A DNA stretch of 26,092 bases from a virus. Both the position numbers and the translations under genes were made by a program. The stretch lies in IMG/VR virus record IMGVR_UViG_3300025030_000382, positions 1-26,092 of that record, one strand, 5' to 3'. Under the pieces are notes generated by a model. That model saw only the letters and a program-made list of their open reading frames with translations, made no database searches and had not been told where the DNA came from. Shown here piece by piece: positions 2,031 through 25,394 of this stretch; within the stretch, counting starts at the first letter, position 1, and every line of letters starts with the position of its first letter.

Positions 2031-5000
2031 ATGCCTACTCTCGACGAACTTATCAACCCTCCGGATGACACAGGCTCGACGCTCCAAGACTTGATGGGCG
2101 AGCCTGCTGGTTTTAGGCAGCCGCGAAGCGGCGTAGGAGAAGTCCTTACTGGCCTTCGTTCAGGTGTAACCGAGGAGGTCCCCCTCCAGGCTGGACAGGT
2201 GATGCAGTGGCTCGGTGAGCCTACCGGAGGCGGCTTCCGTCAGGGCATCTACGATGTGGGCAAGGACATCGCCGACGCCGCCAAAGCTCGACTAGAGCTG
2301 CCGGAGAACAAACTTCAGCCGGAGGCGCACGGCGCAGTAGTCAACGCCTTGGCTGAAGGCGGGAAGATGCTCGCCCCGTCCATCGCTGCTCCTGCCATCG
2401 TAGGAGGCGGCCTGATGCTTGCCGGGGCGGCAGCCCCTGAGCTTGCAGTAGGTGGGGCGGTAGGGCTTGGGATATCGTCGTTACTCGGCGCGGTCCCGGC
2501 GGCTATGCAGCAAGGACAGCAGACCCTTGAGTCAGTCAAAGAGTCCGGGGCGTCCGACGAAGTAGCCCGCGCAGCCGGCTGGAAGAATGCATTCATTGAG
2601 GGCGTAGGAGAAGCAGCAGGTACGTTCGTAGGCGGCAAGTTCGTAGGCGTAGCCGGGAAAGCTCTCGGCAAAGCCGTAGCGCCGACGGTAGCCGGTACGA
2701 TCAAAGCGGCGACAGATACTGCCGTGTGGAAACCGTTCGCTAAGAACCTTGTGGGGACTGCTGCCGCTGAGGTGGGTACTGAGATCGGGCAGGCTGGCCT
2801 GCAGGCCGCAGTGGAAAAAGAGGCAGGAGTAGACGTAGACCCCCTTGAGCAGATGAAAAGCGTCGTTGGACCCACCCTCGGCATGACTGCGTTCCTTGCT
2901 CCGTTCGGACTCCATGCGAACTACCGAAACGCTCAGAGCGCCAAGGCAGTGAATACTGTTATCGAAGATCCAGCTTCAGCGACGCCGGAGCAACGACAGG
3001 CCGTCGTAGACGAACTTCACAAGCAGGCGGTAGCCAACGGAGTGCCGGACGCGGACCAATGGCTCGTTGGAGCGAAAGAGGACGTTACGGCGGGCCTCCC
3101 TATCCGAAGAGTAGCGAATGTAATCCGTGAAGAAGTTACGCCCGCAGAGCAGGCGACCGCAGCCATCCAAGGAGAGCTGCTGAACAACGCAACGTCCGAC
3201 AGAGTCAAGGTCGACAAGGTCGAAGGCAAGAAGGCAAGCATATCCATAGGAGATCAGGCTGCAGAGCTGCTGATCGAAGACGCAGTCAAAGCCGTCGCCG
3301 CCGGAAATCTCGAAGAGGTCCTTACCAAGAAAGTAGTGGAGCAGACTCCGCAAGAGGTCCCGCACGAAGCTGCGGGTGCGCTCGAAGCGGAGACAGTCAG
3401 TCCCGCATTCGAAGAACTGGAGCCGATGAAGCTGGCGCAAGCCCTCGGCAAACCCAATGAAATAAACACGCTTACCACTCTCGGTGTCACCGACCCAGTG
3501 CAACAATCGGAGATGATTGTGCGCGATGCAGTCACCCAGAAAGTAGATCTTGCTCTCATGGCTAGGGCGAAAGGCAAGACAGCGCTCGCAGATACGCTCG
3601 AAACGCAGGCCCGTGAGAACGGTACGAAACTCGTAGAAGCCGGCGGAGAAGACATAGCTCCCTCAGTGGACGCCGCACTCAGTCGGCTGGAGAGCGCCGC
3701 TCAAGCCTCTACCTCTTCAGGGGTAAGCTCACCCAGAGCGGCCACTTCGCCCGCAGAGATAACGCAGGTAGGTCGGCAAGTCTCTCCGGACATGATATAC
3801 AACGGGGAGATGGAGGGGCTGCACTTATTCACCACCCAGACTGGAGCCGCGAAGGGGGGTACATTTGCGATACAGGGTACACCTACAGTTGAGAAGGTTC
3901 AACAGGCCCACAACACGCTTCAGGAGAAATTCGCTGGGACTCAATCTTTCGCCGCCCTCGACAACCTCGCCGCGACCGCTGTGAAGCGAACGATTACCAC
4001 GGGCGACTTGTTCACTACGATTGAACAGTCTCCAAACGTGAACATCCAGAAACTCGGAGGTTTCCTCAAGGCGTTCACGCCCGGCTCAAAGTTGGACGCG
4101 ATTGTTAAGGTAGACCCTACAGCCAAGGCGTCGAAGTACACGCCAGGGACCAACGAAATCGTAATCAAGAATTTGCAGAACGCTCCGACGTCTTTACACG
4201 AGCTGGTGCACTCGGTCACGGTGCGAGAATTGAAAGTCCGACCAGACATGCAGAAGCGGGTGAAAGAGGTCATGGCGTTGGTCAAGGTCCAGGTCGCTAA
4301 GAGCGGGCTCATTTCAAAAGACACGATCTCCGGCATCGAGGCTGCTGGTGGCAGTAAGACGTTCAAGAACAAGTTCCTCGCCGGAGAGCTGTCCGGCATG
4401 GAGCAAATCGGCTACGGGCTCCTCAACGAGCAGGAGTTCCTGGCCCAGGCGTTCTCCTCGCCACAGTTTCAAGGCGTACTGAAAGCGACTCAGATCAAGA
4501 CCGGCGGCAAGCTCCGTAGCGCATGGGACGCCCTCGTCGAGAAGGTTATGCAGGTCCTCGGGATCGAGGCGAAACATACTACGGCGTTCAGCGAGGCTCT
4601 GTCTATCGCTGCTCAGTTGGCGAGTACGGACGTAACCGGAACACCACTACAGGCGCAGACTACCAAGGGTGGTAGCACCTTCATCGCACAGGTGCAGAAG
4701 GACCTGAAGGTTTTCCTCGGCAGGGGGTACGACAATCTCGTGAAACGAGGGAAACTTGAAGTTGTGGAGAATGCAAGCGAACTTGGTACCGAGGGCGAAG
4801 CCCTTCGAACCTCGAACGGCAAAACTGCAGGCGCGTACTTCCCCCTCCAGAAGAAAGTCGTTCTCTTCGCAGACAACCTCCGACCCGGCGGCGCGGCAGA
4901 TCTGATGCGACATGAAGCAGGTCATGCCCTCCTCAAGGAAGACAAGGTATTTCGCAAAGGGCGAACCAAGATCCTGAAGGACTTCGCCGTTCTCGCCAAG

Positions 5001-8000
5001 ACCAACCCTGCGGTCAAGGCTGCATTTGCTAAGGTGCCGAAAGACACGGAGAGAGGCTTCCGAGGTGAAGAGGCGCTCATGTACTTCCTTCAGGAGAAGT
5101 CCAACAGGCAGCACAATATCTTCAAACGGGTACTCTCCGCCGTCAAGGCCGCACTCTACCGGCTTGGTGTCGCCTACGGGCGGTTCTCAGAGTCCGACCT
5201 CGTTTCACTGTTCTCGCAAGGCACTCAGGCGTGGGCACGGAGAGAGCAGGACCAGGCTCCTAGCAGGAGCCTGAACGAGATCCTGGCCAAGCTGGACCAG
5301 CCGGAGCAACTGTTCTCAGTAGTCTCCGACAAAATGAAAGAAGGGCAAGCGACGATTGACCAAGTCTTAGACGCAGTCCAAAATTCGAAGGATATCCTAC
5401 GCGACACCTACGTCAAGTACGCCAAGCAGTGGTTAGCGGTAACACCGCGGTCGCACTTGGCCCAGACCCTCGGTAATAAGATCCACTGGCTAAAAGACAT
5501 CGACACGCACAACAAAAAGATGGAGGCTATCAAGGCCCAACTCCCTGACGACTTTTACGCCATCTATCAGGACGCGGAGCGCATCGCCGAGAAAAACTCC
5601 GGCTTGAAGGCGTTCAACAATCTCCTCCTCGTTGGCACGTTCAACCAGATGACCCCTTGGCTTAGTGAAAACGAGCAAGGCTGGGTATCTACGACCGGCC
5701 CGGCTGCTCTGCAGACCGACAGCGCCGAGCGCCTCTGGCAAGCCGAAGGGATGCGGAAGTCTACTGGCAAGTCGTTCGTTGAGGCGTACCTGGAAGTTCG
5801 AACCGCGTGGGACCGGTTAAAACCGGTTGAGCAGGAGCAAGCGAAAAAGGTCGTTGACTACCTAGCCTTTCTCAGGGAGAGAGAACGGAACAATCTCCTC
5901 GCTGTTATCGAGGCGTCGTCCGAAGGCGACCAGACCTTGCGCGAACAGCTCATGACCCAGTTCAATGCAACCTTCAGCAAGCTGCGAGGCATCTACGTGC
6001 CGTTATCGCGGTACGGTGAGTACATCCTGAAGTTCACTACGCAGGACGGTCGGGAGCAGACTGAGTTCTTCTCCTCACCTGGTGAACGTCGCGTATTCCG
6101 CAATCAGATGGAGGCCCAAGGCGTTGACCCGGACACCTTCGTTGAAGACGTGAAGAGGGAAACCCAGAGAGGCGAAGCCGTTATCCCGCAGGCCCTGCGA
6201 GAGCAGCTCGGCAAAGCCCTTGAGGCGAAGTACATGGCAGGCGTCGACCTGAGTGATGACGGCGCGGTAAGCGAAGCGCAGCAGCGCGCCGCCGACGCTT
6301 TCTCCGACCTGAACCAGGTCATCATCCGCTGGATGCCGGAGACCTCCGCGCTGAAGAACTCCATCCATCGAAAGAACGTTCTTGGTGCCCACACCGACAT
6401 GCTCCGCAGCTCGATGGACTATGTCCTGAGACATGCAGGCTCAATCGCCTGGATGGAGTATGGGCGGAAGATCGAGGCGGATATCCAAGGGTTCGAGGAA
6501 GAGACGAAGGGGATGGTTGCAGACCGAGATGAAAAGGTCCGGAGCGGCGAAGGCGTAATAAACACTGATATGCGCACTGAGTTGGTCAACGACGCCAGGA
6601 GATGGTACCAAGCAGTGAAGAATGAGCGGGTGAGCCCTATAGCCTCGACGCTTGGCAAGTTCAGCACCGCCTACTATATGACGTCCCCATCGACTTTTTT
6701 GGTCCAGTTGACCCAGTTACCAGTGCTCACACTGCCAGCCCTTGCCCGTAAGTTCGCTTCCCTACCGAAGGCAACCGCAGCACTCACCGAGGGACTGCGC
6801 AAGGCGTTCAGTGTGAAGTATAGCAAAGATGCAATGTACGGCGACGCTGATGTAAACCAATTATACGCGGACCTGCATCTGAAAGTAACAGAGAAGAACA
6901 GGGTTGGAGACCGTCAACTCGGCGAAGACTTCTTCTCGCCGGCAGAGAAGCTGCAGAAGGTAAAAGGGCTGAAGTCCGACTATAAGCGCGAGCTTCTCGC
7001 CCTTCGTGAATCTCTCGCCCGAGGCGACTTGGATATCTCCGCTGTCCATGAGGCGAGTGACATCGCTCAAGGGAAACAGACGACTGCGGTCGGCAAGGCC
7101 CTGCGCTACGCGATGCTGCCTATGCAGCACGGCGAGCTTGGCAGCCGGAAAGCGACAGTTCTTGCGAGTTATAAACTGGCGACTGAAAAGAAGAAGGACT
7201 TCTTCTCGGCACTGGACGACTCTTCGGAAATCGTCGGCGGGACGCTTTATAATTACGCCAAATCCGACAAGGGCTGGTTCATGCAGGGAGACACCGTCAG
7301 GACTCTGACGACGTTCCAGACGTACCGGATAAAGACTGCGCTTCGCATGGGTATATTGCTGATGCAGGCGACGAAAGGAGAAACTCCTGAAGTTCGTCGC
7401 GAGGCGATGAAAGAGTTCCTTGGGGTAACTGCGATGTCTGCCGCACTTGCCGGCGTACATGGCACGATTATCGGCGGGCTGGTGTTTGGCCTCGCCAACC
7501 TCTTCGGAGGCGACGACGATGAACCCTTCGACGCGGAGCTGGAGTTCGACAACTGGGTAAACGAGCGGGCCGGAGATCTCTTCGGTGGCGTTATCTCCTA
7601 CGGACTACCTACCGCTGCAGGAATGAACATCTCGAAACGCGTAGGTATGGGCGACCTGTACGGAGCTTCCTCGGAGCCTCCTGAGTATCTGCATGGGGCG
7701 CAGCTCGCGGCATGGTACGCCGGCAACCTCATCGGCCCGAGCTTCTCAGTGGCGCAGTCGTGGGTCAAGGGCTACGACCAGATGTTTAACAAAGGGAACT
7801 TCATGCGAGGGCTCGAAGAAGCGCTACCAAAACCTTTGAAGGACGGACTGAAAGCGATGCGAGTCGCCTCCGACGGACTGAAGACCGGAGCGGGGAAGAA
7901 ACTCCTTGCGGACGAGGCCATCGGCCCTGACGAAATCCTGATGATTGGGCTTGGGTTCAACCCGGACGAAGTTGCGAAGGCACAGGGCGCGGAGCGCAGT

Positions 8001-8264
8001 CTGAACAAGATAGGGACTCAGCTCTCCGAACGGAAAGGCCGACTCATTCGGGACGCAGCACAGGCGATCGTCGAGAGCGAGGACACTGACGGGCCGATGG
8101 CCGCAATCGCGACCTTCAATAAAAAACTCCCCCGGTTTGCTATCACCGGGGGAGATATACGACCCGCAATCAAGAAGATGGTTCTAGGAGAGCAGGGGAC
8201 TACCGGTCTTCGTCAGCAGCAGATTGCTGAGCAGTTTGGGATTCAGACGTACCGGGGGGAGTAG
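2031..8264 (+). CDS. Giant polyvalent virion protein, PLxRFG type, two zincin motifs
   Basis: A 2077-residue protein. Residues about 113-159 and 190-225 are Gly/Ala-rich and hydrophobic. Two separate HExxH motifs follow: HELVH at 723-727 and HEAGH at 961-965, each in a zincin-like setting. A PLSRYG motif at 1324-1329, preceded by Tyr-Val, matches the signature of the large phage PLxRFG domain. A hydrophobic Gly/Ala segment (about 1796-1827) precedes an acidic GGDDDEPFD stretch. Families of this kind are large phage proteins thought to be packaged and ejected with the DNA, and polyvalent proteins often carry several enzyme domains. Protease activity on host or virion proteins is inferred. The ATG lies two bases after the preceding stop and lacks a strong RBS, so coupling is likely. 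Its last 65 bases overlap a gene on the other strand, and a minus-strand terminator lies within its coding sequence. Confidence 0.85.
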   Translation: MPTLDELINPPDDTGSTLQDLMGEPAGFRQPRSGVGEVLTGLRSGVTEEVPLQAGQVMQWLGEPTGGGFRQGIYDVGKDIADAAKARLELPENKLQPEAHGAVVNALAEGGKMLAPSIAAPAIVGGGLMLAGAAAPELAVGGAVGLGISSLLGAVPAAMQQGQQTLESVKESGASDEVARAAGWKNAFIEGVGEAAGTFVGGKFVGVAGKALGKAVAPTVAGTIKAATDTAVWKPFAKNLVGTAAAEVGTEIGQAGLQAAVEKEAGVDVDPLEQMKSVVGPTLGMTAFLAPFGLHANYRNAQSAKAVNTVIEDPASATPEQRQAVVDELHKQAVANGVPDADQWLVGAKEDVTAGLPIRRVANVIREEVTPAEQATAAIQGELLNNATSDRVKVDKVEGKKASISIGDQAAELLIEDAVKAVAAGNLEEVLTKKVVEQTPQEVPHEAAGALEAETVSPAFEELEPMKLAQALGKPNEINTLTTLGVTDPVQQSEMIVRDAVTQKVDLALMARAKGKTALADTLETQARENGTKLVEAGGEDIAPSVDAALSRLESAAQASTSSGVSSPRAATSPAEITQVGRQVSPDMIYNGEMEGLHLFTTQTGAAKGGTFAIQGTPTVEKVQQAHNTLQEKFAGTQSFAALDNLAATAVKRTITTGDLFTTIEQSPNVNIQKLGGFLKAFTPGSKLDAIVKVDPTAKASKYTPGTNEIVIKNLQNAPTSLHELVHSVTVRELKVRPDMQKRVKEVMALVKVQVAKSGLISKDTISGIEAAGGSKTFKNKFLAGELSGMEQIGYGLLNEQEFLAQAFSSPQFQGVLKATQIKTGGKLRSAWDALVEKVMQVLGIEAKHTTAFSEALSIAAQLASTDVTGTPLQAQTTKGGSTFIAQVQKDLKVFLGRGYDNLVKRGKLEVVENASELGTEGEALRTSNGKTAGAYFPLQKKVVLFADNLRPGGAADLMRHEAGHALLKEDKVFRKGRTKILKDFAVLAKTNPAVKAAFAKVPKDTERGFRGEEALMYFLQEKSNRQHNIFKRVLSAVKAALYRLGVAYGRFSESDLVSLFSQGTQAWARREQDQAPSRSLNEILAKLDQPEQLFSVVSDKMKEGQATIDQVLDAVQNSKDILRDTYVKYAKQWLAVTPRSHLAQTLGNKIHWLKDIDTHNKKMEAIKAQLPDDFYAIYQDAERIAEKNSGLKAFNNLLLVGTFNQMTPWLSENEQGWVSTTGPAALQTDSAERLWQAEGMRKSTGKSFVEAYLEVRTAWDRLKPVEQEQAKKVVDYLAFLRERERNNLLAVIEASSEGDQTLREQLMTQFNATFSKLRGIYVPLSRYGEYILKFTTQDGREQTEFFSSPGERRVFRNQMEAQGVDPDTFVEDVKRETQRGEAVIPQALREQLGKALEAKYMAGVDLSDDGAVSEAQQRAADAFSDLNQVIIRWMPETSALKNSIHRKNVLGAHTDMLRSSMDYVLRHAGSIAWMEYGRKIEADIQGFEEETKGMVADRDEKVRSGEGVINTDMRTELVNDARRWYQAVKNERVSPIASTLGKFSTAYYMTSPSTFLVQLTQLPVLTLPALARKFASLPKATAALTEGLRKAFSVKYSKDAMYGDADVNQLYADLHLKVTEKNRVGDRQLGEDFFSPAEKLQKVKGLKSDYKRELLALRESLARGDLDISAVHEASDIAQGKQTTAVGKALRYAMLPMQHGELGSRKATVLASYKLATEKKKDFFSALDDSSEIVGGTLYNYAKSDKGWFMQGDTVRTLTTFQTYRIKTALRMGILLMQATKGETPEVRREAMKEFLGVTAMSAALAGVHGTIIGGLVFGLANLFGGDDDEPFDAELEFDNWVNERAGDLFGGVISYGLPTAAGMNISKRVGMGDLYGASSEPPEYLHGAQLAAWYAGNLIGPSFSVAQSWVKGYDQMFNKGNFMRGLEEALPKPLKDGLKAMRVASDGLKTGAGKKLLADEAIGPDEILMIGLGFNPDEVAKAQGAERSLNKIGTQLSERKGRLIRDAAQAIVESEDTDGPMAAIATFNKKLPRFAITGGDIRPAIKKMVLGEQGTTGLRQQQIAEQFGIQTYRGE
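8118..8154 (-). terminator. Intrinsic terminator of the leftward operon
   Basis: Arms 8127-8136 (CTCCCCCGGT) and 8145-8154 (ACCGGGGGAG) are perfect 10-base complements around an 8-base loop. Read on the minus strand, the hairpin is followed directly by six T residues (8126-8121) and then ATT. This is a textbook rho-independent terminator for leftward transcription, 46 bases beyond the last minus-strand stop codon. It sits inside the plus-strand giant gene, where the same bases encode the stretch around LPRFAITGG near the C-terminus. On the plus strand the hairpin has no following T-tract. Confidence 0.9.
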
Positions 8265-15132: not shown

Positions 15133-15426
15133 CTATTCTACCTTCTTTGTTGCTGCGTTGGCAATAATTTTCCTAATGAGCGCCACTCGCGCACCTACCT
15201 TCAAGGAGTTCTGCAGGGGCAACATGCCGGCGTCGCACGCCGCATCGATGAGAGCGGCGAACTTCAACATAATACCCAGACGTAGGAAATCTTTGATATT
15301 CCCTCCGTCCTTCCACTTATATAAAGTCTCCCGGCTGATACTGGTGAGGCGTTGCACATCGACCATACTGATATCCGCCCGCTCTATCGCCTGGAAAATC
15401 TTCTCTACTTTCTCTTTGGTTGTCAC
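15133..15426 (-). CDS. Small helix-turn-helix DNA-binding protein
   Basis: 97 residues from a GTG start at 15426 with AAGGGAG eight bases upstream. Residues about 19-41 (ISMVDVQRLTSISRETLYKW) form a classical helix-turn-helix, as in XRE- or transposase-type regulators. The C-terminal half is helical and basic. A 24-base perfect palindrome lies 15 bases upstream of the start codon and would be a natural operator for autoregulation; that link is inference. It sits directly upstream of the primase-helicase, so it may control replication genes or help at an origin. Confidence 0.75.
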   Translation of the reverse strand: MTTKEKVEKIFQAIERADISMVDVQRLTSISRETLYKWKDGGNIKDFLRLGIMLKFAALIDAACDAGMLPLQNSLKVGARVALIRKIIANAATKKVE

Positions 15427-15440
15427 TGGTCAACTCCCTT

Positions 15441-15464
15441 CTCCGCCCCTACGTAGGGGCGGAG
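15441..15464. promoter_or_regulatory. 24-base perfect palindrome between genes, possible operator
   Basis: CTCCGCCCCTAC and GTAGGGGCGGAG abut to make a perfect palindrome (or a 10-bp stem with an ACGT loop). It fills most of the 50-base gap between the 55-aa gene and the HTH gene, just upstream of the HTH ribosome binding site. No T-tract follows, so a terminator is unlikely. An operator bound by a dimeric regulator, or an RNA stem controlling HTH translation, both fit. Confidence 0.7.
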
Positions 15465-15653: not shown

Positions 15654-16700
15654 CTATAGGTCGTCGAGCCCCAGCTCGTTAATGAAGTCTTCATCTGAGA
15701 ATTCGGATGAGTCGTAGACCTCGGGTTTGTTTGCTGCTTGTGCAGCGAGCGCTGCTTCGGCTTCTGCCTTGGCTTTTGCATCAGCCTCGGCTTTCTTCTT
15801 GGCAGCAGCGAGTTTCTTCTTGGCTGCGGCCTCCGCCTTAGCTTTCGCCTCAGCTTCCGCTGCGGCCTTGCCATCTTCAAGGTCCAGGCCGAGATCATCA
15901 TCCGCCGGAGGAGGTGCAGTCGCAGGCTTGGGCGGTGCCGGCAAAGCCGGAGCAGCCGCAGACACAGTGATCCCTCTGACGATGTCTTCTACTTCGACCG
16001 ACATTGCCATTTCTTCGAGCTGCGCCATATGGTCTGGTTTGAGAAACCCGCCAAACTTGAAGACCAGAACGGGGTATGTCTGTGCAAGATCGAAACCCGC
16101 CAAAGTCTTGACTGTGCCAAGCGGTATGCCGCTGCCCGACAACTGTTTGACGTACAGGCCGAAGTTCTTCAGCGACGCTGGCGGCAGCTTGAACGAGTGG
16201 ATTCCGAAGCCGGGCACGAATACTGCCAGAATCTTGCTGTCGGAACAGGCTTTGCCTTTCGTCGCGTTGCCGTTCTGGTCGGTACCAGAACCGAAGGCAT
16301 TGTGCGGACAGGCTGCGCAGGTCTCTGATTGCTTAGAGGGGCTACTCAGGTCTGGGCGCTCACCGTCGTTGCTGAAGCAGTCCGGAGCTTGGAACGTATC
16401 GGCGTTCGGGTCGTACTTCCGGAGGTACCATGCTTTCTGCAGGGGTTTCTTCGCCCGCAGGATGATGATAGGCAAGTACTGGTTGTCGTCAGGTCCGTTG
16501 AACAGCTTGCTGGGAGGGAACGGTTTCTCCTCGCCGTTACCGTCCACCAAAGCAAACTTCGTGCCCATCAGCTTTATTCTCGCTGGAAACCCTGTGCCGA
16601 TGCCGGCGGCTGCGTCCTCATTCGCCTGGCGAGCAAGCTCGGGATTGAGAATATATGCCGGAATTTCGGCCTTGCTCGGAATCATAAGTTCATTACTCAT
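15654..16700 (-). CDS. Candidate ssDNA-binding protein with acidic tail
   Basis: 348 residues, ATG 16700 behind GGAGAAAACGAA. An N-terminal globular region (about 35-245) carries a probable zinc site: C108, then C128 and C131 in ETCAACPHN, then C152 in KGKACSD. Residues 250-270 are Pro/Ala-rich, 278-325 are an Ala/Lys/Glu low-complexity helix, and the end (329-348, DSSEFSDEDFINELGLDDL) is strongly acidic with hydrophobic residues. A DNA-binding core, flexible linker and acidic tip are the layout of phage and bacterial ssDNA-binding proteins (gp2.5, gp32, SSB), and the gene sits in the replication operon. I do not recognise the exact family, so the function is inferred from architecture and context. 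Confidence 0.6.
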   Translation of the reverse strand: MSNELMIPSKAEIPAYILNPELARQANEDAAAGIGTGFPARIKLMGTKFALVDGNGEEKPFPPSKLFNGPDDNQYLPIIILRAKKPLQKAWYLRKYDPNADTFQAPDCFSNDGERPDLSSPSKQSETCAACPHNAFGSGTDQNGNATKGKACSDSKILAVFVPGFGIHSFKLPPASLKNFGLYVKQLSGSGIPLGTVKTLAGFDLAQTYPVLVFKFGGFLKPDHMAQLEEMAMSVEVEDIVRGITVSAAAPALPAPPKPATAPPPADDDLGLDLEDGKAAAEAEAKAKAEAAAKKKLAAAKKKAEADAKAKAEAEAALAAQAANKPEVYDSSEFSDEDFINELGLDDL

Positions 16701-17964: not shown

Positions 17965-18171
17965 TCAGTACTTGCCTCCCTCGTATCTCTCCTCTTCCGA
18001 GAAGAGGATGCTTACGCATTCTTTGCAAATACAGGCCGGGTTGTACTCCCCCTCTGAGGCGTCGGAGACCAGGCAGGGCTTAGTTTTCCTACACCTGCAG
18101 CATGTAGCTTCTTTGACCTGAATTATGCCACGCCGGTTATACCCTCCGTCGAAACCTATCCGCATTCCCAT
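17965..18171 (-). CDS. Small cysteine-rich zinc-ribbon protein, 68 aa
   Basis: ATG 18171 (or 18165, two codons later) follows GGAGGAGGGTAAG. A longer frame to 18213 would run into the leader stem. Seven cysteines occur: C24, C25, C27, C33, C47, C49 and C52 (TCCRCRKTKPC and ACICKEC), enough for one or two zinc knuckles. It is the first gene behind the promoter at 18288-18316, so expression should be strong. No family is recognised. Confidence 0.75.
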   Translation of the reverse strand: MGMRIGFDGGYNRRGIIQVKEATCCRCRKTKPCLVSDASEGEYNPACICKECVSILFSEEERYEGGKY

Positions 18172-18186
18172 CTTACCCTCCTCCAC

Positions 18187-18259
18187 ACTCCGCACCCGGT
18201 GCGACCCGCCCACTCCCGGAGGCAGGACATAAGCCCTATGCTTTCGCCGGGTGCGGAGT
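18187..18259 (-). promoter_or_regulatory. Structured 5' leader closed by a 13-bp stem
   Basis: Arms 18187-18199 (ACTCCGCACCCGG) and 18247-18259 (CCGGGTGCGGAGT) are exact complements enclosing 47 bases. The whole element lies between the start predicted for the 18288-18316 promoter (about 18281) and the ATG at 18171, and it ends next to the ribosome binding site. Within the loop, CATA and TATG can form a small inner stem. It does not match a riboswitch class I recognise. A regulatory leader or a stabilising 5' stem are both possible. Confidence 0.65.
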
Positions 18260-18287
18260 AAGAAATTATTTGTTCCTCATTTTCTTA

Positions 18288-18316
18288 ATTGTAACCCGAT
18301 TGACAGAGATAGTCAA
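18288..18316 (-). promoter_or_regulatory. Strong sigma70-type leftward promoter (copy 1)
   Basis: On the minus strand, TTGACT (18316-18311) and TACAAT (18293-18288) are separated by exactly 17 bases. A dyad TTGAC-N7-GTCAA overlaps the -35 box and the spacer and could be an operator. It begins 25 bases after the stop of the PAPS-reductase-like gene. It shares 30 of 35 bases with the other promoter at 23407-23435. Confidence 0.88.
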
Positions 18317-18340
18317 GGGGTTTTTGTTAACTGATTTACT

Positions 18341-19237
18341 TTACTCGTAAGGTACTCCGATGTAGTCGAGTACTCGGTCCATGCCGAGGTATTCCATACA
18401 ATACTTGTGCAGTTTAGGGTGGGTGTACTTCAACTTTACAAATCTTGGCTCCTTCTCCTGCATACAGCCAAACGCACAGAATACGCACCCCGTGCGGTCG
18501 TAGCCCATATTGTAGATAGATGAGTAAGGTATCCCAGCGGTCAAGCATCTCCAGATATCGTGCTCTGTCCAGATAGATAGTGGTCTGGACATAAGTTTCT
18601 TTTTGTCAAATATATTACAGCCTGCGGTCGCGTAACTTCTAGCCCTCGCTCTGCTGTCACATGCCATAACCCCGACCACTGGTACTGCGCCGCTCTCTTT
18701 GTTGAACGCTGCGATCGGACGCTTCTTCATGCAGTCGCAACATTGTTCGCTTATCTTGAACGGCGCGTCTACTAGATAGTGATATTTCTTCGGGATCACT
18801 CCTACAGTCTGCACCTTTCCGGAGGTCGGGTTTACCCCGCCCCAAAGCCGGAGCCTTCGCTGATCCTCAGACTTGGTGTTTCGGTATCTCGATACCGCCA
18901 TCGCGACTTCCTTGCTAATTACTGGGTACCCGTACTTCCTTATCACATCTCCAAACAACATCTTAGGCTTCAGCCACACTACGTTAGGGACAGTTCGCAC
19001 AAACGACGTAACCTCTGGGAACTCAAGACCAGTATTGACGAATACTGCAGGAACTTCCGGGTACAGTTGGCGCACCAGATGCAGGAGCACAGTAGAATCT
19101 TTTCCTCCGGAGAATGAGACGTATACTTTACCATCCCAGGCTTCATACCACTCCTGGATTCGCTCCCTTGCCCATCTAATTTTAGTTGTGATGGGCAGCG
19201 CTTGGCTGGTCGTTATATCGCAGTGGGCGAGACTCAT
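18341..19237 (-). CDS. PAPS reductase-family protein (PP-loop)
   Basis: 298 residues. The start is ATG 19237, one base after the TGA of the helicase gene plus a GAAGGA site; longer frames overlap the helicase. The PP-loop SGGKDS (43-48) is followed by a typical PAPS-reductase fold with VNTGLEFPEV and a downstream SIWTEHDIW. Cysteines at 166, 167 and 169 (CCDC) and 251, 254 and 258 (CVFCAFGC) could bind zinc or an iron-sulphur cluster. The family activates substrates with ATP and includes PAPS reductases, sulphurtransferases and the DndC subunit of DNA phosphorothioation. Phages commonly carry a stand-alone member of unknown substrate. No dndD or dndE homologue is visible here. Confidence 0.85.
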   Translation of the reverse strand: MSLAHCDITTSQALPITTKIRWARERIQEWYEAWDGKVYVSFSGGKDSTVLLHLVRQLYPEVPAVFVNTGLEFPEVTSFVRTVPNVVWLKPKMLFGDVIRKYGYPVISKEVAMAVSRYRNTKSEDQRRLRLWGGVNPTSGKVQTVGVIPKKYHYLVDAPFKISEQCCDCMKKRPIAAFNKESGAVPVVGVMACDSRARARSYATAGCNIFDKKKLMSRPLSIWTEHDIWRCLTAGIPYSSIYNMGYDRTGCVFCAFGCMQEKEPRFVKLKYTHPKLHKYCMEYLGMDRVLDYIGVPYE

Positions 19238-19241
19238 TCCT

Positions 19242-20801
19242 TCACCAACTCCTCTTCTTGGAAAGTTCCAAGACAATATCCTGATACCGCCCATTGCCTT
19301 CAAGGACGGCGTAAGCCCTCTTCTCTTCAGAGGTCGCATATATCCAAGCGATGTCGATCTTCGCTGTCTGCCTGCTCCCATCGGTCCGGGCGTTGGCCTG
19401 CTGATACTTCTCCGACTTGAGGTACGGCGCATACCAGATGGAGAGGGACGCCGTTGTTAAGTCCAGGCCGTGGGCCATGCAGTCCGGGTGGCAGAGAAGT
19501 ATCCAAGGATTCTTCAGGGACCGGAACTCTCGGAACACTTGTGTTCTCTTCGCCGGAGAAACGTCGCCGTTGACGACTGCTACTGACCATCGCTTTCGCA
19601 ACTCCGTTGCCAATGCCTCAAGGACGCCGGTAAACGGGACGAAGACCAAAACCTTCTCATTGTTCTCCTCAATCAGTTCTTCGAGGACTGAAAGCCTCGG
19701 GCCGAAGTCAAGCCTGGCGATAGAGCCGTCTGCAGCATATGCCACGCCTGCGCTGATTTGAATAATTTTTGATAATAAATTCGCGGCGTTAACCGCTGTA
19801 ACCATCGACCCCCGGATGTCCGTCGCTGCCTGATTGACGATTTGTCTATACGCCTTGTGCTGCTCCTCGGAGAGCTGCGCTCGTCGCTCGATGTAATAGG
19901 GCTCCATATCGGTGCAGACCGTTCGCTCGAAGCGGATAGACGGGCTGAGTATGCGCGCTACGCTCTGAGCTGAGTCCTGCTTCGGTACCCACTTGAACTG
20001 GGAGACCTGGAGCATGGTCTCCTGTTTCCAAGCAGTAAAATGCCCTTTCAACTTCTCCGGAGTAATGAGCTTACTCTGGCCGAAGGCGTCGGTCGGGCCA
20101 GTCGGCGTCGGCGAGCCTGTGAGACCCCATGCTGCCCGCGCTATCCCCTGCCGGTTAAGAACCGTGTTCAAGGGTTTCCAGAGGGTCTTGGCCCTGCTAT
20201 TCCTCATCGTGGCGACTTCGTCAATGATGACAAGATCGATATCGGGGCGAGCCTGCAGCTCCTGCTCAAGGAGCCTTACTCCGTGATGATTGATGATATA
20301 AAAATCGTAGGGCTGCGCCAGCAGCGCGAGCCGCTTCTTCCTGCCGCCGTGCAGCACCGCGAAGGTCCTGAGCGGGAATGACTCGAAGATGTTTGTCTGC
20401 CAGACGTCCCAGAGGGTGGAGAGTGGGGCGACGATCAGTGTTCGTTTGACCTTGCCGGCCATGCGGAGGTAGTCTGCAGCCCATAGGGCGCTGAGCGTTT
20501 TTCCCGTTCGCATCGCCGAAAGGCAATAACATCGCATATTGAGTGTGAAGAACTCGGCAGTATCAACTTGATACCATCTCGGCGTGTACCTCCCCGGCCA
20601 GTCGTATTGTGTCCTGATCGGCGACGGCGCCTGCATCCCGAGATTATTCAGGATCTTCGCACTCTCCAAAGTGTGCGGTATGGCTACGTAGTGGCCGCCG
20701 TTGATCATTGCTTCTTTCAGAAGCGGGAAGACTGCGCGAAGCTGCCCGACATTGTCGGCCCGAAGGATGAGGTGGTTCTGGACTACTCGAACCGAGGTCA
20801 C
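19242..20801 (-). CDS. SNF2-like DEAD/H-box helicase
   Basis: 519 residues from GTG 20801, which overlaps the upstream TGA as GTGA and has GGGAGGT ahead. Superfamily 2 motifs are in order: Q-like PRWYQVD near 74-80, motif I SAMRTGKT (95-102), motif Ia IVAPLSTLWDVW, motif II DEVA (194-197) instead of the usual DEAH, MRNS (199-202), motif III GLTGSPTP (226-233), then FVPFTG, NGD and QANARTDGSRQ (468-478) as motif VI. This is the phage SNF2/RapA-type translocase pattern. It lies three genes from a VRR-NUC nuclease and near a Cas4-like nuclease, suggesting recombination-dependent replication or repair. The DEVA motif keeps the catalytic Asp-Glu. Confidence 0.9.
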   Translation of the reverse strand: MTSVRVVQNHLILRADNVGQLRAVFPLLKEAMINGGHYVAIPHTLESAKILNNLGMQAPSPIRTQYDWPGRYTPRWYQVDTAEFFTLNMRCYCLSAMRTGKTLSALWAADYLRMAGKVKRTLIVAPLSTLWDVWQTNIFESFPLRTFAVLHGGRKKRLALLAQPYDFYIINHHGVRLLEQELQARPDIDLVIIDEVATMRNSRAKTLWKPLNTVLNRQGIARAAWGLTGSPTPTGPTDAFGQSKLITPEKLKGHFTAWKQETMLQVSQFKWVPKQDSAQSVARILSPSIRFERTVCTDMEPYYIERRAQLSEEQHKAYRQIVNQAATDIRGSMVTAVNAANLLSKIIQISAGVAYAADGSIARLDFGPRLSVLEELIEENNEKVLVFVPFTGVLEALATELRKRWSVAVVNGDVSPAKRTQVFREFRSLKNPWILLCHPDCMAHGLDLTTASLSIWYAPYLKSEKYQQANARTDGSRQTAKIDIAWIYATSEEKRAYAVLEGNGRYQDIVLELSKKRSW

Positions 20802-21028
20802 GCGACCTCCCTCGCCCAGACATGATCGCAATCAGGACATTGCCACGCAGCAGTCCAGTCATGCTCCATGTCGTATATCCCTAGCTGCCTCCCCCATCTT
20901 CCTGAGGTCTTTGTCGCCCCGTACAGCGCCGCTGTCTCCAGCGCGATCTTTTCATCGCCGTGCATTGCGAGGAAGGTTTCGTATATCAAGTCCCCTTCCA
21001 AGTTCGATTTACAATTAGGACAGATCAT
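20798..21028 (-). CDS. Zinc-ribbon protein, 76 aa
   Basis: ATG 21028 follows GGAGAGGAGGAAAG. Cysteines form a split ribbon: C3-x2-C6 (ICPNC) and C64-x2-C67 (QCPDCDHVW), with a helical insert between. The insert contains an ALYGATKTSGRWGRQLG segment. It ends in GTGA overlap with the SNF2 helicase start, so it may be a small accessory of that helicase; this is inference. Confidence 0.78.
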   Translation of the reverse strand: MICPNCKSNLEGDLIYETFLAMHGDEKIALETAALYGATKTSGRWGRQLGIYDMEHDWTAAWQCPDCDHVWAREVA

Positions 21029-21287
21029 CTTTCCTCCTCTCCCTCTGCTGCAGCCGTTGAACCTGTTTCCGGAGCTTATCATTCTCCTCAATGAGTCTGA
21101 ACACACTGCTAACAGCTTCCTTATTGCCTAAAAATTCCGAGCCGATCAGCTCATCCGATTTATCTGCAAACAGGAATACCACGTTGGCACCTGAACAACC
21201 TCCGCCCTTCCAGTAACGATTGAAGCAGGAACCAATCTCAAGCCGTCCATCTTTCGCCGGCCAAATATTCGCAAATATGTGTCTCAT
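21015..21287 (-). CDS. Unknown 90-aa protein with C-terminal coiled coil
   Basis: ATG 21287 preceded by AAGGAGTAACAT. The N-terminal two-thirds look globular, with CFNRYWKGGGCSG containing a cysteine pair and hydrophobic VVFLFADKSDELIG. The C-terminus (about 58-88) is a charged coiled coil (IEENDKLRKQVQRLQQRERR). It overlaps the zinc-ribbon gene by 14 bases. No family is recognised. Confidence 0.7.
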   Translation of the reverse strand: MRHIFANIWPAKDGRLEIGSCFNRYWKGGGCSGANVVFLFADKSDELIGSEFLGNKEAVSSVFRLIEENDKLRKQVQRLQQRERRKDDLS

Positions 21288-21290
21288 ATG

Positions 21291-21623
21291 TTACTCCTTC
21301 AACCAAGCCTCGAAGAGGCTCAAACTCTCCTCCCCGTCGACGACGAAGACAGCGCCGCCGGAGTCGGCTATTGCTGCGATCTGCAGCGCTTGAAAACCTG
21401 ATGGCTTCTTGCCTGGCGCCTTTGCTTCGATAGCGAAGAACCTCCCCTTGTAGTGCCCTATTACGTCAGGCACTCCTCGCACTGACATCACTCCCTGCAC
21501 TGCAGGATACCACCACCCTGTCGCCTTCGCAAACGTCCCGGCCTTGGTCGCCGCCTGAATGTCGTACTTGGCGAGGAGGGCGTAGATTGTTTTTTTCGTT
21601 GCTCCTTCCGGTGTAGTGCTCAT
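21291..21623 (-). CDS. VRR-NUC domain nuclease
   Basis: 110 residues starting at ATG 21623, preceded by GGAGGCAGG and overlapping the stop of the DHH frame. The VRR-NUC core is visible: VRGVPDVIG with D53, FFAIEAK with E66 and K68, and PSGFQALQ with Q78. This is the PD-(D/E)XK nuclease arrangement. Stand-alone phage VRR-NUC proteins of about 100 residues are typical and often neighbour a SNF2-type helicase, as here. It probably acts on branched DNA, such as Holliday junctions, during replication or recombination. Confidence 0.9.
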   Translation of the reverse strand: MSTTPEGATKKTIYALLAKYDIQAATKAGTFAKATGWWYPAVQGVMSVRGVPDVIGHYKGRFFAIEAKAPGKKPSGFQALQIAAIADSGGAVFVVDGEESLSLFEAWLKE

Positions 21624-21872
21624 CCTGCCTCCGCTGTTTTGTGGTGATCGTAAATAGTTACATTGTATTTAGCGCTTAGCGCCTCGCATATTTCGCGCTT
21701 GTAGGAGAAATCAACGATGTAAAGCACCCTTATCCCCTCCAGGATCTCCGGAACCGGCTGCGAGTACTGGACCTCGATGTAATTAGCTCGGTCTCCGAGC
21801 TTCAGCCAGATTGCAAAACGCAGAAGCGAAGCCGTCTGCGTCGGCGTGGTAAAGCACTGTTACTTCTTTCAT
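21620..21872 (-). pseudogene. DHH phosphoesterase domain with a one-base frameshift
   Basis: ATG 21872 overlaps the upstream stop as ATGA and follows GGAGGGAATAA. The first 19 codons read MKEVTVLYHADADGFASAF, the N-terminal DHH-family metal site, then run out of frame and stop at 21783. Skipping one base of the T run (AAAA on plus at 21815-21818) continues with AIWLKLGDRANYIEVQYSQP, IRVLYIVDFSYK, and IYDHHKTAEAG, ending in TGA that overlaps the VRR-NUC start. D in DADG, D in VDF and the DHH motif are all present, so this was one domain. It stops soon after DHH, shorter than usual family members, which carry further domains. A sequencing indel, real decay or programmed +1 shifting could explain it. 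Confidence 0.85.
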
Positions 21873-22111
21873 TTATTCCCTCCTGCAGAGTCAATCTCCG
21901 CGTTGATGACGGCGTTCTCTGCCCGCCGCTCACTGTCTGCCCTCTCCCAGAAGCGAAGCATCTCGCCGTAAAGTTCGGCCTGCTCGTCAACTATGAAGTG
22001 CAGTACCTGGAACCTCGGTTTGTCAAACTTCCCTATGGGAAGGACAATTTCCATCTCAGTTATCCCTGCGTCGGGATCATATTCCATCCTTAACTCGGCT
22101 TTAAGCTCCAT
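21869..22111 (-). CDS. Unknown 80-aa protein
   Basis: ATG 22111 directly follows the TAA of the upstream gene, with GGGAGGAAATTAA as ribosome binding site. The first half looks beta-stranded (MELKAELRMEYDPDAGITEM and EIVLPIGKFDKPRFQVLHF), and the second half is helical. No catalytic motif is visible and no family is recognised. Its stop overlaps the DHH start. Confidence 0.7.
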   Translation of the reverse strand: MELKAELRMEYDPDAGITEMEIVLPIGKFDKPRFQVLHFIVDEQAELYGEMLRFWERADSERRAENAVINAEIDSAGGNK

Positions 22112-22393
22112 TTAATTTCCTCCCATCATCTTTTTCAAGGTCTCGTTCCGATCCAAGGGCTCGGCGCGCTCCGGCTTCTTCGCGTGCTCGAAGAACTCAT
22201 CTGGAAACTTAGGCGGCACCTGCTCTTTTGGCGGTGCTGGAAGAAAGGCGGCGCAATATACGTATCCGTCCTCCTCTTCTCTCGGTTCGAAGATGTCGTA
22301 CACCGCGTCCGCCGGAGCGAACCGGTAGGCCACAAAACGCTTGCACTTCTCGGCAAGCGAGCATCGTTCGTTTTCACATAGATGTATGCTCAT
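22112..22393 (-). CDS. Small cysteine-containing phage protein, 93 aa
   Basis: ATG 22393 overlaps the nuclease stop as ATGA; a longer frame to 22450 lies within that gene. The N-terminus has C6, C11 and C17 (LCENERCSLAEKCKRF) with C47 in YVYCAAFLP, likely a metal site. This C-x4-C-x5-C-x-RF pattern recurs in small phage proteins of unknown role. The remainder is Pro/Lys/Glu-rich and probably disordered. Confidence 0.72.
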   Translation of the reverse strand: MSIHLCENERCSLAEKCKRFVAYRFAPADAVYDIFEPREEEDGYVYCAAFLPAPPKEQVPPKFPDEFFEHAKKPERAEPLDRNETLKKMMGGN

Positions 22394-23085
22394 CTCCCAC
22401 CGCCCTTCCCGCAGTGCGGGCACGTTCCTACGGAACAATAGTTTCGACAAAGCCCACTTGGGCGAGGGGGGAAGGACTCTTCCGTCCAGGATGTTTCCAT
22501 CCTCCGAACCCAGCCGAAAATCTCCTCCCAGAGTGAGGGGATTTTCGGCTTCTTAAAGACCTCGCCTGTAGCGGCGGCATGCTTCAGCCAGATGTACCGC
22601 AGGTTGAACTGCTCCAGCTCTGGATAGAGCAGAGAGACAAAACAGGCATTAATTTTCAGTTGGAGACTATTCTCTCGGATGCCGCCGGTTTTCCAATCGC
22701 CCACAAAGCAGTTCTTTCCTTTGTGGGCGAGCACATCGATCTGGCAGCGCCCGTAGGCGTCCTTCGCGAACCATTTGACAAACTTCATATCTCGGTTTAT
22801 CGCAAGCTGCTTCTCGGTAAATATCTGACCTCCTGCGGCACAGGACTCAATCACTCGACAATATTTCTCACCTCGGGTGTATCCTGCGGGGAGAGGAGTC
22901 TTGCTCTGCAGCCGCTCTTCGAGCATCTTGTGCTCTAAAGTGCCTTGGCGCATTGCTTCCGTCTCTACGTAAGGGACGGTCTCGTAGAAGCGCTTAGCGC
23001 CGTAGCTCATCGGGCAGTTGATGTAGTCGCTGATCGCCGACGGGGACCAAGAAAAATTCTTACCTCCAGCGTTTTGAGGGATCAT
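22390..23085 (-). CDS. Cas4/RecB-like PD-(D/E)XK nuclease with apparent Fe-S cysteines
   Basis: 231 residues, ATG 23085 overlapping the upstream stop as ATGA behind GGGGAGGATGA. Opening SWSPSAISDYINCP is the usual RecB/Cas4 entry (C24). Then RQGTLEHKMLE with H52, QIDVLA with D117, GDWKTG with D130 and K132, and QLK with Q142 give the nuclease site. The C-terminus has C213, C217, C222 and C225 (LCRNYCSVGTCPHCG). One cysteine early and several late is the arrangement that holds a 4Fe-4S cluster in Cas4 and AddB. It is probably a phage exonuclease for recombination or end processing. No CRISPR genes are nearby, so an adaptation role is not supported. Confidence 0.85.
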   Translation of the reverse strand: MIPQNAGGKNFSWSPSAISDYINCPMSYGAKRFYETVPYVETEAMRQGTLEHKMLEERLQSKTPLPAGYTRGEKYCRVIESCAAGGQIFTEKQLAINRDMKFVKWFAKDAYGRCQIDVLAHKGKNCFVGDWKTGGIRENSLQLKINACFVSLLYPELEQFNLRYIWLKHAAATGEVFKKPKIPSLWEEIFGWVRRMETSWTEESFPPRPSGLCRNYCSVGTCPHCGKGGGR

Positions 23086-23258
23086 TCATCCTCCCCTCTG
23101 CACGCACACAGCGCTCTCCAGTTTGCGACTGCTCTGGATGTTTGGTATGCGAGCTTCGCCTCCAGCTCTTTTACGTCCTCGAACAGTACGTAAGCCCCGT
23201 CAGGAGTCTCGCACATCTGATCCTCCCACGGCACCATTGGTGGTTCATATCTCTTCAT
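23082..23258 (-). CDS. Small phage protein, 58 aa
   Basis: ATG 23258 follows GGAGGAACTGAA; a longer frame to 23435 would start in the promoter and is rejected. MKRYEPPMVPW with DGAYVLFEDVKELEAKL is a common layout of short phage proteins: a basic/aromatic start, a DGxYVLxxDVxxLEA segment, and a helical tail. Function is unknown. It is the first gene after the 23407-23435 promoter, with a leader of about 140 bases in which I see no recognisable element. Confidence 0.75.
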   Translation of the reverse strand: MKRYEPPMVPWEDQMCETPDGAYVLFEDVKELEAKLAYQTSRAVANWRALCACRGEDE

Positions 23259-23406
23259 TTCAGTTCCTCCTTGAATAAAACCCGATTCCGAGTGGCCCTT
23301 CTCGACGATACCTGGCAATTCAGGTCTGATGGTGCGCTCGTGCCGATTTGTCCGTATTCTTCCAACGGCGAGCAGGTAGGCGTTCCCGGTATTTTTTACT
23401 TCCCTA

Positions 23407-23435
23407 ATTGTAACCCGACTGACATTAATAGTCAA
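23407..23435 (-). promoter_or_regulatory. Strong sigma70-type leftward promoter (copy 2)
   Basis: TTGACT (23435-23430) and TACAAT (23412-23407) are 17 bases apart on the minus strand. It lies four bases after the polymerase stop and precedes the 58-aa gene and the nuclease. The TGAC and GTCA dyad around the -35 box and spacer is kept, as in the copy at 18288-18316. Confidence 0.88.
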
Positions 23436-23438
23436 GGG

Positions 23439-25394
23439 TTATTTGTTTCCCCACTTCTCCAAATCCATCAAATCTCCCCACGATGTTCCGATCTTGGCGT
23501 CGAATGGGAACATAATTGGAAGGTCGACGCCCCAAGCCTTTTTGTACGGCAAGGCTGAAAGCCTATCGCGGAAAACTTCTGCTGCCTTCAGTGCTCTGTC
23601 CTCCGGGAAAATGAAAAAGAGTCCATCATGCAACTCATAGTAAAAATACCCTGAAAACTCAGGAAGAAGGTTGCGTGCAATCGCCATCGCTAGATACTTC
23701 TGATCTCCGCCAGTCCCTTGAATCGGGTAGTTGATGGATGTACTCTCCATAGCCCAAGCATCTCGACCTGCCCAACTTCCTTTGAGCTGTACTCTCCTAC
23801 CGGCGAAGGTCTCGGCGTAGCCGAGCCTCTTGCACTTCTCGATCTGCCGCCCCCAGTAGCCACCATTCCGCTCTCGCGGCAGCCCCCCGACGCCGACATA
23901 AGAGGTTCGGTAGATAGCCTGCGTCCGCTGGATGAACGCCTCGTCAACATCGAGTTCATAGTCAATTCGAGCTTTTGTTGTGGCAGTTCGGGCACTTACC
24001 CTATACTGATAGGACAAATTACAGAATTTCCCGCACTTACGCTCATTGGCAGCTTCAACATCTCCGTCTTTTACTCTTTGCACAAGGTCTCGATAGTCAC
24101 ATGATGCTACTTGTGCTCCCATATACCCGTGTGCGTCCTCTCCAGGAGCGCAAAGCGAGAGCATTGTCTCATCGCCGGAGGCGACCGCCATCCAACGAAA
24201 CTCCTGGCCTGCTGCGTCGAACTCGGTGAGTACATAGCCTGGAGGCGGCATTATCAGCCTGCGGTATTCTTTCCCTCTCTTCCACTGGTGGAGAGCTACG
24301 CCGACAGGAACTTCGACATTCTTAGTGATGATCTGAAGACCGTTTTTCTTCGTTGTCTTCTCGAACTGCCTCGACGCCTTGTCGGAACTTCCATAGGTAA
24401 TACGTGAAGTATACGTCGAGAAGATTTTTGCCTGTGGCCTGACTTTCCCGTCTCCATTGTATGCAAGACTATTAATTGTGCCGATGGCGTACTTCTTTCT
24501 GTTGTTCTTCGCCTCCCGCAACTCTTTCAAGAGTTTCGCCCTTGGGTCGATGAAGGCCAGATCGAACAAGGCATACTTGTCGGTCGAAGGATCTCCGGAT
24601 TTTTTGGAAAACCTGTCAGCCATGAGCCCCCAATTCTCATAAAGAAGTTTTTGCAGTTGTTTCGGACTCCCGAGGTTTATCCCCCTGACCTCTGGCGAGG
24701 TTCGAAGAAGCTCCCGATATGTCCTAATTGCGTCATCGGCAAGAGAGTTTGCGAGCTGCCTGGCGGCGCCGTCTGCTGAGTTTATTCCGAGAACTTTTGT
24801 TTTCGCAATGAGTGGTATGCACCTTGCCTCAATAAGTGCGATCCGCCGCTGCCCTTCATTCAACATCCCCCAGAACTTCTCAGCCAACTTCAGAGTCCAG
24901 TAGGCATCTTTCTTGTTACGGTGTAACAGGAGTTCTAAACTTTCCTGATCTACAGCCTGAAAATCTTTGAAATCCTTGAACCCTGCCTCTTGCGGATAGA
25001 ACTCATACATTGCCGACTCAAGAGAATACGACTTCCTTTTCGCTCTTGGAATATCTTCACCCTCCGGCTCGACTACAGCGTGCCGCCACAAAAGCATAGC
25101 GTCCAACCACTTCGTTTTGAAAACAACCTCCTCAAGGCCGATAGCGATGCACCACGCTGCGTCGAATGCTACGTTCCACCCTACTACATAGCTATCAGTC
25201 CTGCCTGCGTACAGGAGCATGTTTCTAACCTTAAAGAGGTCAGGATATAGACTCCCCCTCATTTCTTCGCCTACGGCAATACTGGCGGCCTTAATCTTTG
25301 CTTTGCCGGTCTCAGCTCGAAAAGGTTGAAGGGCGTACTCAGGGAGGTCTCCTTCTGTCTCAAGGTCGAAGCCTACGGCCTTCGGCAAGCTCAT
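23439..25394 (-). CDS. DNA polymerase, family A, with 3'-5' exonuclease
   Basis: 651 residues, ATG 25394 overlapping the upstream TGA and following GGGGAGGAGCG. Exonuclease motifs: FDLET (D10, E12), GWNVAFDA (N74, D78) and HRNKKDAYW (D163), where the residue at the usual ExoIII tyrosine place is Arg159. Polymerase motif A is EFDAAGQEFRW (D393, E398, R400); motif B is ERKCGKFCNLSYQY (R452, K456, L460, Y464); motif C is ELHDGLFF (H589, D590), with Gly in place of the usual Glu. The conserved INYPIQGTGGD precedes motif C. It replicates the phage genome and lacks the 5' nuclease domain, as in phage polymerases. Leucine at the E. coli 762-equivalent is a known variant class. Confidence 0.95.
   Translation of the reverse strand: MSLPKAVGFDLETEGDLPEYALQPFRAETGKAKIKAASIAVGEEMRGSLYPDLFKVRNMLLYAGRTDSYVVGWNVAFDAAWCIAIGLEEVVFKTKWLDAMLLWRHAVVEPEGEDIPRAKRKSYSLESAMYEFYPQEAGFKDFKDFQAVDQESLELLLHRNKKDAYWTLKLAEKFWGMLNEGQRRIALIEARCIPLIAKTKVLGINSADGAARQLANSLADDAIRTYRELLRTSPEVRGINLGSPKQLQKLLYENWGLMADRFSKKSGDPSTDKYALFDLAFIDPRAKLLKELREAKNNRKKYAIGTINSLAYNGDGKVRPQAKIFSTYTSRITYGSSDKASRQFEKTTKKNGLQIITKNVEVPVGVALHQWKRGKEYRRLIMPPPGYVLTEFDAAGQEFRWMAVASGDETMLSLCAPGEDAHGYMGAQVASCDYRDLVQRVKDGDVEAANERKCGKFCNLSYQYRVSARTATTKARIDYELDVDEAFIQRTQAIYRTSYVGVGGLPRERNGGYWGRQIEKCKRLGYAETFAGRRVQLKGSWAGRDAWAMESTSINYPIQGTGGDQKYLAMAIARNLLPEFSGYFYYELHDGLFFIFPEDRALKAAEVFRDRLSALPYKKAWGVDLPIMFPFDAKIGTSWGDLMDLEKWGNK

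Follow-up and report, generated by a model that had tools for sequence, protein, structure and literature searches.

Operator-bearing early promoters that are repeated within one genome are known from phages such as lambda (OL/OR) and phiC31, with its conserved inverted repeats. Stabilising hairpins at the 5' end are known from bacterial and phage mRNAs, for example those of ompA and T4 gene 32. The stoperators of cluster A mycobacteriophages are several like sites per phage genome served by one repressor; they are numerous and asymmetric, and they stop elongation (PMC9283540). In phage HK022, the antitermination RNAs putL and putR follow two early promoters, are alike, and consist of two adjacent stem-loops each (PMC9378689).

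The locus described here lies in an IMG/VR record of 26,092 bp, the whole of which was analysed and is called the window below; it is a single phage fragment, the relatives of which have 63-65 kb. Like lambda and phiC31, this phage carries near-identical promoters at separate genome places, each under the same inverted repeat. In contrast to those systems, it has one dyad per promoter and exactly two sites, which point in the same direction and belong to one replication operon, and its repressor is putative. The stable stem near the 5' end of one leader (leader A), just upstream of the ribosome-binding site, resembles the ompA and gene 32 hairpins, but the other leader of the window (leader B) has no stem, and a stabilising role for leader A is putative. 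One repressor for several like sites, as proposed here, recalls the cluster A stoperators, but exactly two dyad-symmetric sites inside promoters, in place of many asymmetric ones, separate the locus from that class (PMC9283540). A structured RNA after each of two promoters is a likeness to HK022, whereas the two leaders found here do not resemble each other, and a single long stem closes leader A, which sets them apart from the put RNAs (PMC9378689).

Sequence comparison makes it probable that the locus comprises paired sigma70-type promoters with a shared operator, which would restart transcription of two replication sub-operons.

Two promoter-like blocks in a replication operon

Leftward genes extend from ~8.4 to 26 kb of the window and encode replication functions, including a polymerase, an exonuclease, a VRR-type nuclease, a helicase, an ssb-like protein, a small HTH protein, a DUF927 primase/helicase, a cytosine methylase and a thymidylate synthase-like protein. 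This run of replication genes suggests that the two blocks, which are ~5.1 kb apart, are internal promoters of one long replication operon. The GC-skew around the two sites showed no switch suggestive of an origin. The opposite strand carries the gene of a DarB-like antirestriction protein of 2077 aa (2031-8264, plus strand), convergent with the replication operon, and a strong terminator-like inverted repeat CTCCCCCGGTGATAGCAAACCGGGGGAG is located at 8127-8154, near the convergence of the two transcription directions. In the search for a host, helicase relatives (38-41%) turned up only in two betaproteobacterial MAGs, too distant for an assignment. The features around the two sites are as follows.

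23439..25394, minus strand: DNA polymerase family A gene (Pfam PF00476, E 4.8e-32), directly upstream of site B
23439..23447, minus strand: A-rich element AACAAATAA, putatively UP-element-like, ~3 nt upstream of the -35 box of site B
23406..23435, minus strand: predicted promoter/operator B, TTGACTATTAATGTCAGTCGGGTTACAATT; -35 TTGACT (23435-23430), 17-nt spacer, -10 TACAAT (23412-23407)
23420..23434, unstranded: dyad TGAC-N7-GTCA of site B, probable operator
23082..23258, minus strand: first small gene downstream of promoter B, 58 aa
22390-23085: PD-(D/E)XK exonuclease, after the 58-aa gene
19242..20831, minus strand: SNF2-type helicase (Pfam PF00271/PF00176), the conserved core gene preceding slot A in relatives
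18341..19432, minus strand: PAPS reductase-like gene (Pfam PF01507, E 2.7e-23), directly upstream of site A; its 5' end overlaps the helicase ORF and its start is uncertain
18321..18328, minus strand: A-rich element AACAAAAA, upstream of the -35 box of site A
18287..18316, minus strand: predicted promoter/operator A, TTGACTATCTCTGTCAATCGGGTTACAATT; -35 TTGACT (18316-18311), 17-nt spacer, -10 TACAAT (18293-18288)
18301..18315, unstranded: dyad TGAC-N7-GTCA of site A, probable operator
17965..18171, minus strand: first small gene downstream of promoter A, starting at the ATG behind GGAGGAGGG

The two near-identical promoter-like blocks described in the earlier note were recovered with both hexamers, the 17-nt spacing and the TGAC/GTCA dyad. 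The 35-base stretches quoted there share 30 of 35 bases and form the top direct 35-mer pair within the window, and identity is 83% when the comparison is made over 48 bases. Both sites have hexamers of the TTGACA and TATAAT type separated by 16-18 nt, as in sigma70-type promoters: TTGACT and TACAAT each match at 5/6 positions, giving 10/12 hexamer matches per site. Both blocks are on the minus strand, a point on which the earlier note was silent. A degenerate pattern matched twice in the window and not at all in 100 dinucleotide shuffles, and a position-weight scan of the genome revealed no further copies above the shuffled background. The Pfam matches confirm that the blocks follow the 3' ends of a PAPS-like and a polymerase gene, with the polymerase stop 3 nt before the -35 box of site B and the PAPS gene stop 24 nt before that of site A. 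The A-rich element of site B overlaps the final codons and the stop of the polymerase gene, and an ACAAAWA-like stretch precedes the -35 box in most sites of the window's lineage (lineage I) and of the more distant lineage II.

The dyad overlaps the -35 box and the spacer at both sites, so that each promoter lies under the same inverted repeat, and TGAC-N7-GTCA occurs exactly twice in the window against a mean of 0.30 in shuffles. Its arms are short (4-5 bp), and the -35 box itself supplies part of the repeat. For a plain sigma70 promoter, a fixed TGTCA in the spacer would be superfluous, which suggests a bound protein. A divergent plus-strand promoter on the same dyad was rejected on inspection by eye, as its -10 box would be TTTGTT.

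In the proposed mechanism, for which we infer promoter activity, the binding protein, the sign and timing of control and the function of the leaders from the DNA, promoter B would restart transcription for the exonuclease-endonuclease-helicase stretch and promoter A for the genes of the ssb-like protein, the HTH protein, the primase and the methylase. One sequence-specific protein would most likely occupy the dyad, which spans the 3' portion of the -35 box together with some of the spacer, and both promoters would be switched together, most simply through blocking of RNA polymerase (repression). The A-rich stretch just upstream probably boosts promoter strength. Most transcripts would carry a tRNA or a stable stem-loop at their start, a feature that may protect the 5' end or guide processing.

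Conservation of the sites and gene exchange around them

Viral contigs were scanned with the pattern TTGACN7GTCAN4GGTTACAATT, which matched 12 stretches with 13 sites on 10 related viral contigs; bacterial genome contigs had no match, and no close match to this phage group was found among isolate phage records. Exactly two copies are present in each of two near-complete contigs (62,980 and 64,223 bp) and in a 17,172-bp contig, and a weight-matrix scan of these three revealed no weaker copies above the shuffled background. A single match in G017, which has no homologue of the window genes, was treated as chance, and tandem copies in G016 were put down to overlapping contig ends carrying two variants of the same slot. 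Placement of the window proteins on the contigs showed that slot B lies behind the polymerase and before the exonuclease, and that slot A follows the helicase, with variable cargo in between, and is itself followed by g17265/ssb. In the window, the 17965..18171 gene is followed by g17265, g16693, the ssb-like gene (15654-16700), the HTH gene and the DUF927 primase/helicase gene.

Across 10 distinct sites there is no variation in the hexamers (TTGACT as the -35 box), in the two dyad arms or in GGTTACAATT. The dyad centre is variable and mostly slot-specific, with TAA in all slot B sites and CTC, ATG or ATA-like centres in slot A. Thus, the two sites appear to be an old pair kept by selection rather than the product of a recent duplication. 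The idea of a repeated promoter cassette is upheld by the relatives, which keep it in the same two slots. The earlier note had named the lack of both further copies and conservation as one outcome that would speak against it; no further copies exist, but conservation in relatives is strong.

The genes around the sites have been exchanged. Full-length polymerase of the window type was not found in G001, G002, G005, G015 or G016. G001, G002 and G016 allowed a complete reading of the slot, and all three carry another kind of family A polymerase there, of about 730-750 aa; in G001 and G016, a residual 3' piece of the window-type polymerase gene (DLMDLEKW-like) has survived after the stop codon of the new gene and ahead of promoter B. 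Downstream of promoter B, several relatives have a terminator-ended folded RNA and then a tRNA-Pro(UGG), to which G001 and G002 add an RtcB ligase; this region is possibly a tRNA-repair or counter-defence cassette. The cargo before slot A is a PAPS reductase in the window and L010, consists of other genes in L004 and L008, and is absent from L011 and L012.

L037 1068-1115, minus strand: polymerase replacement with a short remnant of the old gene
L062 (G016), near the right end: the same
L059, left end: the same
L033 10618-12047, L005 1823-2033, L008 5307-5518 and L003 549-772: folded RNA and tRNA-Pro(UGG) after promoter B, with RtcB in G001 and G002
L011 2672-2755: tRNA-Ala(GGC) directly after promoter A

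The ends of the 65-kb G016 contig (L059 1-700 and L062 4469-5168) overlap, with different cargo between the polymerase and promoter B, which suggests strain variants of one circularly assembling genome.

In more distant relatives, slot B reads TTGCAATACCTTGTCAATCAGTTTACAGTT (or begins TTGCATTACC; L042, L015, G015 and G016) and slot A reads TTGACAACCCGTTGACGAAGTTGTAGGGT (L042, L015 and G016), and a similar stretch, of the form GTAAACC..GC.(A/G)ACAAATA, lies ahead of both. Lineage II still has promoters at these positions, and the common stretch upstream of them, but no longer the dyad; slot B of this lineage retains TGTCA in the spacer with a poor -35 (TTGCAA) and -10 box (TACAGT). Promoter-like sequences occupy both slots in lineages II and III, both of which lack the TGAC dyad; L016 has them in both slots, that of slot B being weak. 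Random stretches score as well in proportions of 0.005 for the window, 0.03-0.06 for lineage II, and 0.05 and 0.12 for lineage III. L043, which is ~50% identical in helicase and polymerase, has no promoter in either slot. Since promoters are found in both slots across lineages and the dyad in one, the promoter pair appears to be older and the TGAC dyad specific to the window's lineage. The loss of the dyad in lineage II also indicates that the arrangement can do without the operator.

Leader RNAs and candidate regulators

Between each promoter and its first small gene lies a leader, the start of which was predicted from the promoter position, sigma70-type starts being expected about 7 nt downstream. 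The leaders and the candidate regulator are listed below.

18281 to the ATG at 18171 (behind GGAGGAGGG), minus strand: predicted leader A, ~110 nt
18180..18262, minus strand: structured leader RNA A, a 14-bp stem (ACUCCGCACCCGG/CCGGGUGCGGAGU) enclosing small hairpins
23400 to the ATG at 23258 (behind AAGGAGG), minus strand: predicted leader B, ~142 nt
23259..23400, minus strand: leader B of the window, with no significant structure (z +1.15 and +1.26)
15133..15426, minus strand: small HTH protein, the candidate regulator proposed in the earlier note
15441..15464, unstranded: perfect 24-bp palindrome CTCCGCCCCTACGTAGGGGCGGAG, ~15 bp upstream of the HTH gene start

The leader A structure ends just before the ribosome-binding site and is conserved in four distinct phages, with folding z-scores of -2.3 to -2.9 in the window and -4.3 in L004 and L008. 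Covariation lends the folds minimal support: a single pair has changed on both sides in the four sequences compared, which are too few and too close to prove a structure. L072-L074, retrieved by pattern search as leader A homologues, have neither the second arm nor a promoter and look like chance matches. Strong folding was found for the slot B leaders of L003, L005, L008 and L042 (z -2.6 to -4.4). Neither leader A nor the leader B of relatives matched an Rfam family at the gathering score, where tRNAs were the only hits; leader matches at a permissive threshold were weak.

The HTH protein has a predicted helical fold of high confidence (pLDDT 89). Its domain matches are all weak (Cro/C1-, resolvase- and transposase-type HTH), and its Foldseek neighbours are the antitoxins NatR and MbcA, together with HipB and further Xre-type regulators, at E-values no better than 0.0095. 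Promoter A would serve the operon that includes its gene, so autoregulation is possible. Conservation is 70-77% in lineage I and 42-43% in lineage II, where the recognition segment ISRETLY is kept. The palindrome occurs once per genome (window 15441-15464, L034 906-929, L011 5166-5189 and L004 5256-5279); it is found upstream of the HTH gene also in G002 and L011, is absent there in L039 and L013, and shares CTCCGC arms with the leader A stem. It is either a rival candidate site of the HTH protein or an mRNA hairpin. Relatives encode other small Xre-type HTH proteins upstream of the polymerase, in a region beyond the end of the window contig. The regulatory role that the earlier note offered for this protein is thus not established: it is conserved in lineage II without the dyad, its own nearest palindrome differs, and relatives have other Xre-type candidates. 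The repressor candidates comprise this protein and several Xre-like proteins of relatives, none of which is singled out. No integrase of the tyrosine type (PF00589) was found in the window, G001, G002 or G016, so that an immunity repressor is not assured; a temperate life cycle would be required only for an immunity system.

Alternative explanations and significance

Against co-regulated promoters we count the lack of promoters in both slots of the more distant phage L043, the unstructured leader B of the window, the shortness of the dyad and its overlap with the -35 box, and the loss of the dyad in lineage II. The last observation would also fit strong promoters without regulation, in which the conserved spacer, by its shape, and the A-rich stretch, as an UP element, do no more than tune host RNA polymerase, and the dyad would be a coincidence, TTGAC of the -35 box chancing to face GTCAA: lineage II retains the promoter and the A-rich element, and each genome has two copies only. 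However, the spacer TGTCA is invariant in 10/10 distinct sites and persists in slot B of lineage II, whereas three adjacent bases vary freely, a constraint unusual for ordinary sigma70 spacers, which makes this explanation rather unlikely. The same spacer element, TGTCANTC, could instead be bound by a phage protein that recruits RNA polymerase to middle promoters without any repression; MotA of T4 is an activator of this kind. Its presence in slot B of both lineages, with poor hexamers in lineage II, is in line with such activation, but the near-consensus hexamers of lineage I (10/12) would make an activator unnecessary and a dyad over the -35 box is in the usual position for repression, so that we regard activation as distinctly improbable.

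Exchange of genes at both slots raises the further idea that the block is kept for cassette exchange by homologous recombination, with promoter function secondary. Slot B has seen two Pol A types, the window-type remnant in G001 and G016, and RtcB plus tRNA-Pro; slot A has PAPS reductase or other genes before it and tRNA-Ala after it. Conservation, however, tracks promoter anatomy (hexamers, 17-nt spacing and operator arms) rather than a uniform block, and the polymerase remnants place the exchange junctions outside it; a recombination boundary is very improbable. A broader and still doubtful reading is a docking module of promoter plus structured RNA, in which two fixed, co-regulated promoters would each feed an RNA of an undescribed family while cargo genes are swapped around them. 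Slot A would contribute the leader with the CUCCGC stem; in relatives, slot B would contribute the terminator-ended RNA followed by tRNA-Pro and RtcB RNA ligase.

Shared operators at repeated phage promoters are a textbook principle, and phages are known to have arrangements of this type; new here are the present instance and the unclassified leader RNAs. Paired promoters with a shared probable operator would provide a testable regulatory map for an uncultured phage group, with two promoters, one operator and two operons, and the analysis brings to notice leader RNAs for which Rfam has no family. A promoter that stays in place while the adjacent polymerase is replaced represents a clear case of regulation outlasting the surrounding genes.
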